Shown piece after piece: positions 2,393 to 21,403 of a stretch of DNA of 22,658 nt. Location of the stretch: the IMG/VR virus record IMGVR_UViG_3300013102_000076, positions 1 to 22,658 of that record. One strand, 5' to 3'. This DNA comes from a virus. The first letter of the stretch is position 1; each line of letters starts with the position of its first letter. Both the position numbers and the translations under genes were made by a program. The notes below the pieces were generated by a model that saw nothing but the letters and a program-made list of their open reading frames with translations, searched no databases and was not told the origin of the DNA.

Positions 2393-3193
2393 GTGAGCAC
2401 CAAGATGTCCAACGCTCCCGTCTATTTTGCTCTAGCCCAGGTTCAATTCAATCCTGTAGCTGCTATGCATAAGTACGTGGACGAAATTCAGGACCAGTTT
2501 CGTCGTAAGGGATATACCCTTTTCGAAACGAATCATGTTGCTCACGTACAGTTTTCTGCTGTTTCTGCTGTTGACATGGGTCAACCAAAAGTTGAAACCG
2601 TAACGAACTGGAACTTCTCAAAAGCCGGGAAGGAAATTGGATTTCTCTTAAACAATAACAGCCTGACACTACAGACGACATTCTACGAGAACAGAGAAGA
2701 GTTCATCCCCGAACTCCTTAATGGCGTCGAAATAGTTAATAGAGTAGTCGGGCTAGATCATATAAGCAGAGCTGGCCTTCGCTACTTGAATGCGGTAATT
2801 CCTAAAGAAGAAGAACATATAGAACAATACCTGGACTCAGGCTTCCACGGAATCGAATCCAAATTCAATAGGCGATACTCTCTTGACGAAATTGTTTTTG
2901 ACACCGAGTGCGGCCCACTAATAAGCGATGGCACTCTAGTAGTAAGAATATACTCTGCCCGCTCAGTGCTAGGATTTCCACCTGATCTATCGCTAAATGG
3001 GCTAATAGCAAATCCTAAATTTATTACGGAAAACCCATTGGTTCACTCGGTTATAGACATGGATCACTTCACGGATGGCAAAGTTGATCTTGACCTTGAA
3101 AAATTAAAGGATCAATTCTTCTCTCAACACGATGCAATTCGCGATGCTTTCCGAACAATTGCAACGCCGTATGCGCTTTCTGTGTGGGAGTAG
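2393..3193 (+). CDS. TIGR04255-like protein, first gene of cargo operon
   Basis: Encodes 266 aa from a GTG, chosen because AAGGAG (2380-2385) lies 7 bases upstream. The pattern fits the TIGR04255 family, whose biochemical role is unknown: an N-terminal segment (YFALAQVQFNPV), a WNFSKAGKEIGFLLNNNSL strand pair near residue 65, a central YENREEFIPELLNG helix, and the signature ISRAGLRYLNAVIP near residue 125. The C-terminus (LEKLKDQFFSQHDAIRDAFR) ends in the usual helix where a dimerising F..L...H....F..IT pattern is seen in relatives. No signal peptide or TM segment is present, so it should be cytosolic. It is much AT-richer than the phage genes and is followed by a gene only 4 bases after its stop, so the two are co-transcribed. 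Proteins of this family often sit in variable islands; a defence role is inference. Confidence 0.75.
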   Translation: MSTKMSNAPVYFALAQVQFNPVAAMHKYVDEIQDQFRRKGYTLFETNHVAHVQFSAVSAVDMGQPKVETVTNWNFSKAGKEIGFLLNNNSLTLQTTFYENREEFIPELLNGVEIVNRVVGLDHISRAGLRYLNAVIPKEEEHIEQYLDSGFHGIESKFNRRYSLDEIVFDTECGPLISDGTLVVRIYSARSVLGFPPDLSLNGLIANPKFITENPLVHSVIDMDHFTDGKVDLDLEKLKDQFFSQHDAIRDAFRTIATPYALSVWE

Positions 3194-3197
3194 AAAA

Positions 3198-3854
3198 ATG
3201 TATAGCGTAACTCACAGTCCTTACCAAGCAACTCGGGCAAAAACGCCTAGCACTGTAGTACAGAGAAGCACTGGCAACTCTTACATTCAAAGCTTTGCAA
3301 TGTTTGGACTCTTACTTTTGGGTACAGGGACATCCTACATCGCTGAGCGCATTCCATATTGGCGAGACCATGTTCAAAGTCGGGTACCTTTTGTAGTTGA
3401 AAAGCAAGGGCATCAGCCTACGCCTAAGGCTGTAGATATGCGGATGCCTGTCGCTCATCTCGACAATATCAAAAGCTCTTTGCTTACCTCGGTATCTGAT
3501 ATTTCCGTAGCACTCGGAGTGACAAGACAATCCATATATAAGTGGAGCGCAGGATCAGCTTTTCCTGATTCAGAACATATGCGCAAGCTATTGAAACTGA
3601 GCGGCATCGCAGATCAATTCCAGGCTGCCGGTATCAAAAACGCCTCATCACTCGTTAAAATGAAAATGTTTGATGGGCGCTCTCTTGTTGAGCTACTGAA
3701 AGACCAAAAAGACACTACAAACGCAGTTTCCATACTTATTTCAGAAGCAGAGATTATGGAAAAAGCACATGCTAAATCTAGAATTAGCTACTCCAAAACC
3801 AAACCAGATAATTCTTGGCAATCTGATATTTCATTGCCAGGAGGAATCGGCTAA
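3198..3854 (+). CDS. Membrane-anchored helix-turn-helix protein, second gene of cargo operon
   Basis: Encodes 218 aa. The ATG at 3198 was chosen because GGGAG (3186-3190) lies 7 bases upstream; an upstream ATG in the same frame would overlap the preceding gene. Residues 29-48 (YIQSFAMFGLLLLGTGTSYI) form one membrane helix, followed by a linker. Residues about 99-134 are an XRE-type HTH: SDISVALGVTRQSIYKWSAG, with the typical ALGVTRQSIYKW recognition helix. The segment after it (MKMFDGRSLVELLKD, then a helix with ILISEAEIME) weakly recalls the toxin-binding tail of Xre/MbcA antitoxins. A DNA-binding domain tethered to the membrane would suit a sensor or regulator, or DNA recruitment to the envelope. 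It lies 4 bases after the first gene and 17 before the third. Exact function unknown. Confidence 0.75.
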   Translation: MYSVTHSPYQATRAKTPSTVVQRSTGNSYIQSFAMFGLLLLGTGTSYIAERIPYWRDHVQSRVPFVVEKQGHQPTPKAVDMRMPVAHLDNIKSSLLTSVSDISVALGVTRQSIYKWSAGSAFPDSEHMRKLLKLSGIADQFQAAGIKNASSLVKMKMFDGRSLVELLKDQKDTTNAVSILISEAEIMEKAHAKSRISYSKTKPDNSWQSDISLPGGIG

Positions 3855-3871
3855 GAACTGGAGTGCAGTAA

Positions 3872-4705
3872 ATGCTTGATCGTGACACTTTGTGGAGACA
3901 AGGTAGTATTTTCCGCACATCGGACGCTCAAGCAATTGGTCTTTTTGATGGCGAAGAGGGAGCTGTCGCAATCGTAGTAACTCACGACTGCGACATCCCT
4001 AATGCTAGGGAAGACGAACTTGAAGTAATCGTTGGTAGGTTTTGCCAAAAAGATAAGATGTTTGCAAACGCTAAGAACCCTAGGCGGCTACATCTTGCCT
4101 ATCAAAAAGGCGATGAAGAGTTTGTAATTGACCTGCATCAGACTGATAAGCAGTACGTCGGAAAATCGAGCTTCCAAGAAATTGGACAACCTGATGACTC
4201 TTACTACTTATCAGACGAGCAAAAGAGAGCGTTGAAACAGTGGTTGGCAGCTAGATACGGCAGGCCTGCTTACCCAAACAGCTTTGAAAACCGTCTAACA
4301 AGTCGAGATTCAAAAAAATCGCGCCTAGAAAAAGAAGTCGCAAGTGTTCTGACTGAGAAGTCAGAACATATTATCGCGCTTTTCTTTGACCTTGATGAAT
4401 ATCGAAACGTGGAGCTTTTGGGAGACGACCCATACATCCTACGGATAATCATCGCGTACGACGCGGTAGAAGGCGGCAGTCAAGCCCGCACCAGTGCCGA
4501 AGAAGCGGCCGCCCAAATCACCAGACTGTTTCATGAAAGATTCGGCACCCCCGATAACGCCACGGACATCGTGCTCGAAGACTGTACAGCGGTAGCAGAC
4601 ACTCAACTTTCTTTAGCAGATATTAGAAAGCTTGATCAATGGCGACTTGAATACGTGAGTATTCAGGACGAGCCACAGTCTCCGTACCTAGCCTCTGGGG
4701 AATAA
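3872..4705 (+). CDS. Unknown protein with THDCD motif, third gene of cargo operon
   Basis: Encodes 277 aa from the ATG at 3872, with GGAG (3860-3863) 8 bases upstream. It is soluble, acidic, with no TM segment. Near residue 30 comes AIVVTHDCDIPNARE, a beta strand leading into T-H-x-C-D; similar S/T-Q/H-x-C-D motifs occur in unassigned proteins of accessory islands, and the Cys/His/Asp cluster could be catalytic or metal-binding. The middle has basic stretches (RLTSRDSKKSRLEKEV) and the end carries LADIRKLDQWRLEYVS. I do not know the family and do not assign an activity. It ends the operon, and a strong terminator starts at its stop codon. It is AT-richer than the phage genes, although its 3' third (4450-4560) becomes GC-rich. 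Confidence 0.75.
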   Translation: MLDRDTLWRQGSIFRTSDAQAIGLFDGEEGAVAIVVTHDCDIPNAREDELEVIVGRFCQKDKMFANAKNPRRLHLAYQKGDEEFVIDLHQTDKQYVGKSSFQEIGQPDDSYYLSDEQKRALKQWLAARYGRPAYPNSFENRLTSRDSKKSRLEKEVASVLTEKSEHIIALFFDLDEYRNVELLGDDPYILRIIIAYDAVEGGSQARTSAEEAAAQITRLFHERFGTPDNATDIVLEDCTAVADTQLSLADIRKLDQWRLEYVSIQDEPQSPYLASGE

Positions 4706-11204: not shown

Positions 11205-11531
11205 ATGAGAAACATCATGCCTGACCGTCCTGACTCCTGGGCCTGGTTCGCCACCTGGCTCGAACACAACTGGCCCGCCCTCTACGCCGCCATGGTCGCC
11301 TGCGTCATCGCCGGCCTCCGGATCGCCTACAGCGGCGGCACCCTGCGCCGCGTGCTGCTCGAGGCGCCCCTCTGCGGCGCCTTGGCCCTGGCCGCAAGCC
11401 ACGGCCTCTCCCTGCTGGGCATCCCTGCCAGCACCGGCCCCTTCTGGGGCGGAATCATCGGACTGCTGGGCGTCGAGGGCACTCGCGCCGCGGCTAAACG
11501 CTTCGTCGAACGCAAGGTAGAAACGCAATGA
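11205..11531 (+). CDS. Phage holin, lambda S-like family, with two possible starts
   Basis: Encodes 108 aa from ATG 11205, or 104 aa from ATG 11217. It makes the inner-membrane hole that triggers lysis. Three membrane helices are visible: WPALYAAMVACVIAGLRIAY, LCGALALAASHGLSLLG, and GPFWGGIIGLLGVEG, followed by a basic tail (RAAAKRFVERK). The start MRNIMPDRPDSW echoes the lambda S dual start (MKMPEK): two Met codons with a basic residue between, and each has a weak GA-rich ribosome site. MPDRPD is the usual family start. The stop overlaps the endolysin start (ATGA). Confidence 0.85.
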   Translation: MRNIMPDRPDSWAWFATWLEHNWPALYAAMVACVIAGLRIAYSGGTLRRVLLEAPLCGALALAASHGLSLLGIPASTGPFWGGIIGLLGVEGTRAAAKRFVERKVETQ

Positions 11532-14093: not shown

Positions 14094-14861
14094 ATGGCAC
14101 CTACAATTGTTGGCGCATGCAAACTTTGCCAAGAAGAAAAAAACCTCCATGACTCCCACATAATACCTAGGGCTTTTTTCAAGAAGATAAAATCAGGAAT
14201 CCCTCAACTCATAAGAATAGATACCGCACCCAATGGGACAGTCGGGCGAGATAACGCAAACTGGTCAGAATATTTACTTTGTGGCAGCTGTGAGGCTTTT
14301 TTAGAAAGGAGCTACGAAGGTTCACAAATTAGGAAATTACGCGACTACAGAGAAAATCTGAAATCTCCGGGACGCCTGACGTTAGTAAATTTTGAATACC
14401 AGAGGTTTTATCTGTTCTGGCTAAGCATCATCTGGCGAGCATCGGTTTCTTCTATGCCAGAGTTTGGCTCTGTCAGGCTCGAACCGAATATCGAAGAAAT
14501 GTGCCGAGTCCTTATCAAAGACAGAAGAACAGATGCTGTGTTAGATGCTTTTGCCAGACACTTCAAAATAGGAATTCTAAGAATTGCAGATGAGGAACTG
14601 GGATTCGATTCTAAAAAATTCCTAACCAGCTTCAGAAAGAGCACAGAAAACCAAATTGATCGATACTTTATAGCGATAGAAGGCTTTCTCATAGTTTTCC
14701 AAATTTCAAATCTAACCAACCTTGACTTACCTAGCGACTTTTCCAATCTCAAAAAGACATCTATCTTCAGGATTAGGAGAGTAGTTCCGCACAGAAACAT
14801 TGAGATAGTCAGGACCCTTGCTGACATGCAAGAAAAGGCTATTCAGCACTCCAATGCGTGA
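14094..14861 (+). CDS. AT-rich cargo gene: HNH-like zinc-binding protein
   Basis: Encodes 255 aa. GAGGAAAA lies ~8 bases before ATG 14094. The N-terminus holds C9-x2-C12, then H19-D-S-H22-IIPRAF, and C63-x2-C66-E: a four-Cys zinc knuckle around a D-S-H-I-I-P motif, as in HNH/endonuclease VII-like treble-clef proteins. Catalytic competence cannot be judged because the usual second Asn/His is unclear. The rest is helical, with an aromatic stretch (FYLFWLSIIWRASVSS, ~residues 105-120) and a conserved-looking IEGFLIVFQISN. No close homologue is known to me. It is strikingly AT-richer than both neighbours and inserted between S and V. A phage-exclusion or nuclease role is inference. Confidence 0.75.
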   Translation: MAPTIVGACKLCQEEKNLHDSHIIPRAFFKKIKSGIPQLIRIDTAPNGTVGRDNANWSEYLLCGSCEAFLERSYEGSQIRKLRDYRENLKSPGRLTLVNFEYQRFYLFWLSIIWRASVSSMPEFGSVRLEPNIEEMCRVLIKDRRTDAVLDAFARHFKIGILRIADEELGFDSKKFLTSFRKSTENQIDRYFIAIEGFLIVFQISNLTNLDLPSDFSNLKKTSIFRIRRVVPHRNIEIVRTLADMQEKAIQHSNA

Positions 14862-14959: not shown

Positions 14960-15018
14960 TGTAGCGGACGCTGCTACACATCCCTCCGGCTGCACCTCGC
15001 GCGCGCGGCCGCCATCCT
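14960..15018 (+). promoter_or_regulatory. Late promoter of the V operon
   Basis: TGTAGC-N7-GCTACA (14960-14978, centre 14969), then 19 bp, then CGCGCGCGCG (14998-15007), then CCATCCT (15012-15018) 43 bp from the centre. Same layout as ahead of O and FI. If the activator site is near -55 as in P2, transcription starts around 15024, right at the V start codon (15026), so the V message would have almost no leader. Confidence 0.75.
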
Positions 15019-19827: not shown

Positions 19828-20517
19828 ATGACCGATATCGCTTCTGAAACCCTGCAGGCCGGCCAGGACCGTTCCACCCAAGCGGCGGCATTGCCCTGGT
19901 GGCAAGACCGTCTGGCCCCCCAAGTGGCTACCTTCGACCCGGTGTCCGGCGAACTTCTGGGCAGGACCTCGGCAGACCCCAGCCCGCTGGAGCCTGATGT
20001 CTGGCTGATCCCGGCACATAGCACTCTGGACAACCCACCGGAGCCGGGCGCCGGCCTGGCCCTAGTGCGCCGTGAAGAGGCCTGGGTCGAGGTCGAGGAC
20101 CACCGCGGTGCCACCGTCTACCACACCGGCACCGGCGAGCCACGCAAGTGGGGCCTTCTGGGTGCCCTGCCCAGCGATTACACCCTGGCTGCGCCACTCA
20201 CCGAGTTCGACACCTGGCAGGACGACCACTGGCAGCTGGACGAAGCCGCGCAACTGGCCGCGGCCAAGGCCCTAGCCACCCGCAAGCGTACCCTGCTACT
20301 GCAGTACGCCAGCAGCCAAGTCAACGCCCTGCAGGATGCTGTGGATCTGGAGATTGCCACCGAGGCCGAGACCAAGGCGCTCAAGTCTTGGAAGACCTAT
20401 CGGGTGCTGCTCAACCGCGTGGACACCATTGGCGCCGTCCCGGCCGAGAGCGACTGGCCGCAATCACCCCTCCCGACTGAAACGCAGCTTTGGCTAGAAT
20501 CGCAGCAATCGTCCTAG
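19828..20517 (+). CDS. Tail fibre assembly chaperone
   Basis: Encodes 229 aa. The C-terminal half belongs to the phage tail-fibre assembly chaperone type (Caudo_TAP-like): a helix KALATRKRTLLLQYASSQVN, then LQDAVDLEIATEAETKALKSWKTYRVLLNRVD (within residues 170-203). The N-terminal half (FDPVSGELLGRTSADPSPLE, WVEVEDHRGATVYHTGTGEP) is of the kind that rides on the fibre tip. It starts 10 bases after the fibre stop and is co-transcribed. Codons in the last ~20 residues (after QSPLPTE) become AT-richer, near the boundary of the next insert. Confidence 0.87.
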   Translation: MTDIASETLQAGQDRSTQAAALPWWQDRLAPQVATFDPVSGELLGRTSADPSPLEPDVWLIPAHSTLDNPPEPGAGLALVRREEAWVEVEDHRGATVYHTGTGEPRKWGLLGALPSDYTLAAPLTEFDTWQDDHWQLDEAAQLAAAKALATRKRTLLLQYASSQVNALQDAVDLEIATEAETKALKSWKTYRVLLNRVDTIGAVPAESDWPQSPLPTETQLWLESQQSS

Positions 20518-20532
20518 GAAGGTTTGCCGATC

Positions 20533-21342
20533 GTGTATTACCTCGACTTCAGAATGCTAGCCAAACGCTATAACAAACTTTTCTACTACGGCTTCGGTCG
20601 CGCTTCATTCCGCGCCCCATACTTCTGGCTTTCGTGTGTATTTCTTGTTGGCATGGTGCTCTCCTGCTACATCCAAATTGCGCACACCGACATTGCCGGA
20701 ATTTTTTACTGGAGAACACTTCTCTCGCTGATAGTTTTTGAGCTCCTATTCATCGGCTCGTATCAGGCTCACATCCGTAGAAACCATAAGCAGAAATTCA
20801 CTGCTTTAGGATATGAGCGCGACGTAGACAGCGACATAGTGAAGATAAAATGGCTCGAGTCCGAGTTAGAGGTTCGCAGAGACGGCTATTCAGACCTGGT
20901 AGCGCGGATCGAAGCTCTCGAGGCAAGAATGGAAGCTGACCGATACAACACGAAGTCGCTTTTTGAAAAATACAACTCCATAGTTTTCTGGCCGAAGCGA
21001 TTTTTCGGCGCCCTAGCTGTCGCTGTTCTCGCTCCGATTAGCTTATTTGCCACCCAGGCTTTCCTAGAAAAGAAGGAGTGGACTATCTTTCTCCAACCCT
21101 GGCTAAGTTCAAACAACATCAGTGCTGCGCTGATAATCATGTTCGGCACTTTCGTCTTCGGGTCGCTGGTAGCGCTTGCGCTCAGCTTGTTTAAAGTTCT
21201 GATTTGCTACTGCGTGGACGTCAATAAAGAGAACTGGTGCAGCCAGCCTAGCGTTGACCGACTTTTGTATGACCTGCTCCGTTTTGCCAAGGTAGACACG
21301 GAGCTTGGCGCGATTGAAAGCATCAGTTCAACGAACTCCTAG
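20533..21342 (+). CDS. Cargo gene: four-TM protein with cytosolic coiled coil
   Basis: Encodes 269 aa. GTG 20533 was chosen because AGGAAGG (20516-20522) lies 10 bases upstream; the in-frame TTG at 20524 is only one base from that site. Predicted layout: N-terminal cytosolic stretch, TM1 (FWLSCVFLVGMVLSCYIQIA), TM2 (TLLSLIVFELLFIGSYQA), a charged coiled coil (KIKWLESELEVRRDG to LEARMEADRYN), TM3 (FGALAVAVLAPISLFATQAF), TM4 (ALIIMFGTFVFGSLVALALS), and a cytosolic tail. Lower GC than its neighbours, and it lies between the fibre chaperone and the sheath gene, the place of fun(Z) in P2. No family recognised. A superinfection-exclusion or abortive-infection role is inference from position and membrane topology. 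Confidence 0.75.
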   Translation: MYYLDFRMLAKRYNKLFYYGFGRASFRAPYFWLSCVFLVGMVLSCYIQIAHTDIAGIFYWRTLLSLIVFELLFIGSYQAHIRRNHKQKFTALGYERDVDSDIVKIKWLESELEVRRDGYSDLVARIEALEARMEADRYNTKSLFEKYNSIVFWPKRFFGALAVAVLAPISLFATQAFLEKKEWTIFLQPWLSSNNISAALIIMFGTFVFGSLVALALSLFKVLICYCVDVNKENWCSQPSVDRLLYDLLRFAKVDTELGAIESISSTNS

Positions 21343-21403
21343 TTTGTAGGGATTGCCCCTACAAACCCCGCCCCGCGACCCGCGCGCGCGGATCCGCCAG
21401 CCT
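21343..21403 (+). promoter_or_regulatory. Late promoter of the FI operon
   Basis: TTTGTAGGG-N5-CCCTACAAA (21343-21365, centre 21354), with 9-bp perfect arms, begins at the base after the cargo gene stop. It is followed 17 bp later by CGCGCGCGCG (21381-21390) and CCAGCCT (21397-21403) 43 bp from the centre. Same layout as ahead of O and V. Predicted start near 21409, giving a leader of about 34 bases. The arms could also act as a terminator hairpin for the preceding gene. Confidence 0.75.

Follow-up and report, generated by a model that had tools for sequence, protein, structure and literature searches.

A gene for a four-helix membrane protein as swappable cargo at the Z (fun) locus of a P2-like prophage

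Introduction

Prophage cargo loci are a productive source of new defense systems, and single membrane proteins without recognizable domains are easily overlooked. Cargo that brings its own expression signals is known as a moron. Three variable regions of P2-like phages are distinguished in the part of PMC3091744 available to us: the right end (TO-region), the Z-region and orf30. In P2 itself (NC_001895) the gene order is H, G, the terminator of the V operon, fun(Z) on the minus strand, the PF activator site and FI. The fun(Z) gene is non-essential cargo between the tail fiber assembly gene and FI, and is annotated as blocking phage T5 when cloned; flanking repeats are told for it in the accessible portion of PMC8987985.

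Other described systems resemble this arrangement in place or in kind. The cos-proximal (old/tin, TO) hotspot is a variable P2-like locus with anti-phage genes, some of which have transmembrane effectors (PMC9122126, in part). In Pf filamentous phages, accessory genes adjoin int, according to the available text of PMC7549136, and a Pf-borne defense module is described in the portion of PMC11341870 at hand. Finally, S-4TM effectors (PF18159; the 4TM effectors of PADLOC) act in CBASS beside a CD-NTase or other signal maker.

In this study, we followed up a sequence-only reading of a viral DNA in which a gene at the fun(Z)-equivalent locus had been proposed to serve superinfection exclusion or membrane-damage abortive infection. 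We compared the gene, its locus and its protein with those of other P2-like loci, bacterial genomes and defense systems.

Results

The window and the cargo gene

The window, i.e., the whole stretch of DNA analyzed (22,658 bases, IMG/VR record IMGVR_UViG_3300013102_000076), is a P2-like prophage truncated at FI; at the left end, host sequence and a tRNA-Thr are included. Its flank (1-1330) has a full-length match of 87-91% in 9 of the 13 genomes of the genus of Pseudomonas sp. EpS/L25 (genome G002, locus L083), including that of P. rhizoryzae (G003, L084). The features that matter here are the following.

19828 to 20517, plus strand: tail fiber assembly gene, left neighbor (Caudo_TAP 2.8e-24, phrog_105 1e-60)
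20460 to 21342, no strand: block without counterpart in close relatives, comprising the end of the assembly gene and the cargo gene (blastn against 16 close loci)
20516 to 20522, plus strand: Shine-Dalgarno-like AGGAAGG, 10 nt before the GTG (sequence)
20533 to 21342, plus strand: cargo gene for a 269-aa four-TM protein, GTG 20533 to TAG 21342 (open reading frame, hydropathy, homologs)
21342 to 21366, plus strand: palindrome with TGT-N13-ACA directly behind the cargo stop codon, putative late-activator site of the F operon promoter (consensus from PMC3931495)
21443 to 22609, plus strand: FI tail sheath gene, right neighbor (phrog_23 5.3e-138, Phage_sheath_1 1.2e-28)

GTG 20533 was preferred as the start because TTG 20524, which would give a longer frame, would be too close to AGGAAGG. 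The gene begins 15 nt past the assembly-gene stop and ends 100 nt before FI; its GC content is 0.49 (GC3 0.60), against 0.66 in both neighbors (GC3 0.78 and 0.90). It is genuine rather than a chance open reading frame, since the block is absent from close relatives, full length is kept in three homologs, and dN/dS is 0.11 in the homologous pair L165/L166. The frame at 20533-21342 and its AT-richness thus stand as the sequence-only reading had given them.

The protein had no family match in Pfam, PHROGs, NCBIfam, PADLOC or PDB; we took a DUF4131 match (0.034), far below cut-off, for chance. Apart from the 3' palindrome, which is present at empty sites too and has no T-run behind it, no flanking repeats were found. 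We considered whether a 12-nt inverted repeat surrounding the start codon might act as a switch hiding the ribosome binding site and rejected this, its fold being no better than that of shuffled sequences (z -0.30).

Position between two transcription units

The order in P2, with fun(Z) between G and FI, upholds the equivalence of the two loci claimed earlier, even though fun(Z) lies on the opposite strand. The window has a variable gene in this place that is missing in close relatives, as expected of P2 Z-locus cargo. The two genes are otherwise different: P2 Fun has 528 aa, is encoded on the minus strand, contains a P-loop-like stretch (by eye) and lacks a strong hydrophobic segment, whereas the cargo gene is on the plus strand and encodes four TM segments. 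The proteins show no BLASTP similarity (best E 0.91), in agreement with the initial impression of an unrelated gene, and membership of the Fun(Z) family can be set aside.

The motif in the palindrome behind the cargo gene recurs in the window. TGTA-N11-TACA occurs in three copies (7714, 14960 and 21345) against 0.04 expected, each ahead of a late operon, and TGT-N13-ACA lies upstream of FI in 36/36 loci whose FI is at least 87% identical. The P2 late-promoter consensus, in the part of PMC3931495 available, is TGT-N12-ACA, in place of which TGT-N13-ACA seems to serve these phages. From its sequence we take 21342-21366 as a putative late-activator site. The cargo gene sits between two transcription units and leaves this site intact.

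A scan limited to the sigma-70 consensus recognized no promoter before the cargo gene, nor upstream of the L022 and L007 relatives; the cargo gene could be a late gene. As a late lytic accessory gene, it would be expressed by read-through of the tail-fiber operon and would tune lysis or assembly, or close the cell to others late in infection. The common strand, the 15-nt distance from the assembly gene, the lack of a recognized promoter and the coincidence of the gene end with the next late-promoter site are all consistent with such a role. Against it, the gene is missing in most close relatives, whose tail modules are complete, its relatives are found in a Thoeris locus (see below) and in filamentous prophages, a type that leaves the cell unlysed, and holin and endolysin are encoded elsewhere. 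A lysis role is unneeded because a complete holin is present at 11205-11531 (Phage_holin_3_1 1.1e-27). Overall, we regard a late accessory function as quite unlikely.

A swappable slot

In blastn comparisons of the window with 16 close loci, similarity ends at ~20459 and returns at ~21343 to 21357. We then searched open reading frames of 36 close loci, including the window itself (L001), with hmmsearch profiles of two protein families of like layout, designated A (that of the window protein) and B. Family A was present in two loci (L001 and L022) and family B in seven (L007, L008, L011, L012, L014, L033 and a fragment in L017), with neither in the remaining 27; at least 11 of these 27 have an empty slot, the assembly gene being 125-146 bp from FI. 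Five family B loci are 95-99% alike and should not be counted as independent events.

More broadly, in 143 loci 2 kb or more of sequence precede FI. In 44 of these, an AT-richer open reading frame of at least 100 aa ends at most 500 bp from FI, although some of the frames are unlikely to be genes, e.g., those running antisense in L023, L025 and L027. Among the 44, 19 have at least two hydrophobic segments, and a membrane protein at this slot is therefore frequent, not constant, in P2-like phages. Like a moron, the cargo gene has a deviant base composition and is absent from close relatives. It is swappable prophage cargo at the variable Z (fun) locus of P2.

By eye, acyltransferase-like multi-TM proteins occupy the Z slot of other P2-like prophages (L079 3916-5781, L153 3791-5737, L159 3217-5229 and L041 4716-5831) and are probably surface modifiers; thus, slot cargo is not all defense.

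We take the window to have AT-rich genes at all three variable regions of P2-like phages. At 2393-4705, the cos-proximal variable locus adjoining the portal gene, an AT-rich group encodes a TIGR04255 family protein (2.9e-38), a weakly HTH-like protein and a 277-aa protein (phrog_34320, 4.7e-5), and is a candidate defense or conversion module. At 14094-14861, seemingly the orf30 locus, an AT-rich gene encodes a 255-aa protein with matches to phrog_7075 and phrog_19960 (2.2e-26, function not annotated) and a very weak one to HNH_5; it ends 99 bp before the late-promoter-like palindrome at 14960.

Family A: homologs in prophages

Homologs were found via the FI neighborhood and by profile searches. 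Family A has four members, the window protein and those of L022, G124 and G165; the three homologs are full length, with 21-28% identity, and the family has 24 invariant columns in common. A homolog at the same locus, which the earlier reading had proposed to look for, is that of L022, in the same slot of another P2-like prophage (26%, 5.6e-24, tblastn); genome G013 encodes the identical protein. Profile matches were found in 3 of 398 genomes of the taxonomic family (G013, G124 and G165), in 1 of 13 genomes of the genus of G002 and in 2 of 25 of the genus of G124, these three sets overlapping. A class-level search gave 0/369, three family A proteins had no tblastn match among phages and plasmids, and a pattern scan of genome contigs and viral contigs with the window protein had none either. 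In an order-level search, matches in 3/390 genomes (E 1.5e-6 to 5e-4) were short stretches in longer open reading frames and were not counted as family A. We also rejected as chance, far below cut-off, matches of L165 to Phage_holin_1 (0.005) and a PHROG holin (0.02), of L022 to FA_desaturase (0.022) and of L166 to PADLOC PDC-M18B (0.008).

In G124 and G165 the family A gene directly adjoins a tyrosine integrase (PF24624 and PF00589 in G124). Both loci resemble filamentous prophages of the Pf-like type. Zot was identified in G124 (2.4e-72), and the call for G165 is based on a similar integrase and gene order, a coat-like open reading frame having given no Pfam match. The neighbors in G124 are a BglII-type restriction endonuclease (3.9e-40), a D12 methyltransferase and a weakly PDC-S11-like protein, and that in G165 is a DUF4062, PDC-S60-like protein (3.5e-58), a defense candidate; PDC names denote defense candidates. 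Rather than being mainly housekeeping membrane proteins, the outcome that would have spoken against the sequence-only reading, all four known family A members lie in prophages, away from housekeeping loci, and two of them are beside defense or defense-candidate genes.

Family B: the Z slot and a Thoeris locus

Family B proteins have about 311-323 aa. The 13 records comprise the seven slot loci, G008, a P. luteola plasmid record and G108, G042, G119 and G212; family B is present in 5 of 298 genomes, G008 included. The Z slot holds nine of the 13 records, one of these inferred. In the plasmid record the family B match lies behind tail genes, and the record ends before the expected FI. In G008 (L188 2902-4986), the family B gene at the Z slot is followed by two CheY-sized genes, one with a Response_reg match (6.5e-13), a possible prophage sensor/effector set. 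Matches of L033 to Form_Nir_trans (0.002) and of L181 to PADLOC PDC-M50A (0.001), far below cut-off, were dismissed as chance.

The family B gene of G108 comes after two TIR proteins (ThsB_TIR 6.1e-5 and 1e-25) and ThsA (PADLOC 2.6e-180). In this stretch (L184 5270-9672), the row of two TIR genes and ThsA continues with the family B gene and what may be another membrane gene, perhaps a Thoeris locus with an extra membrane output.

Three of the 13 records (G042, G119 and G212) are not clearly beside defense genes: a DUF4365 gene lies ~3 kb from the family B gene of G042, and inspection by eye of G119 and G212 found no evident defense neighbor. These records, and the acyltransferase-like genes at the slot (L041, L079, L153 and L159), would suit a lysogenic conversion gene of another kind, i.e., a transporter, channel or stress protein that aids the host and has no anti-phage role. 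The rare and patchy occurrence (3/398 genomes) and the lack of any transporter or signaling family match above cut-off argue against this explanation, which we consider improbable.

Relation of the two families

With five family B sequences, hhalign of A against B gave a probability of 3% (E 0.013), and with eight, 68% (E 4.8e-5) over 243 collinear columns. This score was reached by one of 300 local column shuffles, and comparisons with S-4TM and with eight further membrane-protein sets taken from these loci gave nothing comparable. The signal is gone with the TM segments masked (score 12.5, null mean 14.4), and single family A members match the B profile weakly (E 0.006 to 0.25). Sequence comparison thus suggests that the families probably, not surely, have a common origin; because the signal is weak and TM-dependent, we kept them as separate families of like layout.

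A bolder reading, which we consider doubtful, would unite A and B as the two branches of a single undescribed family of membrane effectors that have 2+2 helices and stand alone. Such effectors would be exchanged among tailed P2-like prophages, filamentous prophages and defense islands, lying at the Z locus, beside the integrase and behind Thoeris, respectively, and could abort infection either unaided or as an additional output of a signaling system. If so, membrane-type defense genes would have a hotspot in the Z locus of Pseudomonas P2-like phages, just as other kinds have theirs in the cos-proximal locus.

Layout and predicted topology

By hydropathy, the window protein has hydrophobic segments at 31-49, 56-74, 160-178 and 199-217, matching the two plus two helices previously described. 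A layout script placed exactly four segments in each of 12 proteins (four A, eight B), all with the same spacing: an N-tail of 25-38 aa, TM1, a loop of 3-18, TM2, a middle of 83-91, TM3, a loop of 18-36, TM4 and a C-tail of 49-93. Since K/R are concentrated in the N-tail, middle and C-tail of all 12, with 0-3 in the loops, the positive-inside rule predicts that both ends and the middle are cytoplasmic; we infer an inner-membrane protein with only very short loops outside.

The charged coiled coil of the sequence-only reading held in part. The middle (75-159, 85 aa) of the window protein is charged, with 16 K/R and 14 D/E, and it is helical in two AlphaFold2 models of very low confidence (mean pLDDT 44.2 and 48.6); only two or three regular heptads could be made out by eye. 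A PDB profile search returned a single match (E 0.31), attributed to chance, and family B alone had no match in PDB. In 10 pairs of relatives, dN/dS is 0.04-0.21, showing that selection keeps the protein in these relatives.

The topology bears on superinfection exclusion proper, in which an inner-membrane protein of the lysogen blocks DNA entry of related phages and the cell survives. A prophage-borne inner-membrane protein in two phage types, at once rare and varied, suits rivalry among related phages. The outer loops are, however, of 3-36 aa and poor in conserved residues, the soluble mass is mostly cytoplasmic, and the neighbors in G124, G165 and G108 are intracellular defense types. We therefore consider exclusion proper unlikely. 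Sequence does not discriminate between superinfection exclusion and abortive infection by membrane damage; the cytoplasmic bulk and very short outer loops would suit an effector sensing from inside rather better.

Discussion

Of the functions considered, we tentatively favor, at somewhat less than an even chance, a stand-alone inner-membrane anti-phage effector carried as prophage cargo, which would rest inactive, sense an incoming phage product and perturb the membrane. The shared layout, the spacing in common with S-4TM effectors and the dN/dS of 0.04-0.21 lead us to propose an effector with cytoplasmic sensing of infection and action on the membrane. Since rare relatives sit in other prophages, some beside phage-defense genes, a role in guarding the infected cell against rival phages is possible, although the defense-type neighbors come from three loci (G124, G165 and G108). 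The effector would be idle in the membrane of the prophage-bearing cell until a product of the incoming phage elicits a response in the cytoplasmic middle or tails; the helices might then open or perturb the membrane, and the infected cell would be halted before the rival phage is made, probably abortively. Beyond an inner-membrane protein of prophages, each element of this proposal (the anti-phage role, the trigger and the membrane damage) is deduced from sequence.

The exclusion or abortive-infection reading made at the outset thus gains from the locus, the cargo character and the prophage homologs, but no promoter of the gene's own was recognized, which counts against a role in lysogen protection. 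A topic-based, rather than sequence-based, literature search found no title or abstract on the two protein families. One rare layout, repeated at one slot, in two phage types and near known defense genes, yields a small family of candidates open to testing, and a cloning screen of the fun locus in Pseudomonas P2-like phages would be worthwhile.

Among known systems, the cos-proximal hotspot is a different locus from the Z slot, and the cargo family is not named in the portion of PMC9122126 available. KKP of Pf prophages is likewise an anti-phage gene set on a filamentous prophage; as given in part of PMC11341870, it consists of kinases and a phosphatase, without a membrane protein of the cargo kind. 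S-4TM effectors have two helix pairs round a middle of ~90 aa, with similar length and tails, and the hydropathy spacing of two of them, L176 and L189, equals that of the cargo families. In sequence the two show no detectable relation (BLASTP; hhalign E 0.034 over 53 columns, not collinear), and the PF18159 profile, searched from Pfam and PADLOC, matched none of the four family A members. Whereas S-4TM effectors have their signal maker in CBASS, the cargo gene has the assembly gene and FI as neighbors, without a nucleotidyltransferase partner. The CBASS S-4TM effector is the closest working analog, not a detectable relative, of the cargo protein, which, judged by the likeness in layout, could work alike.
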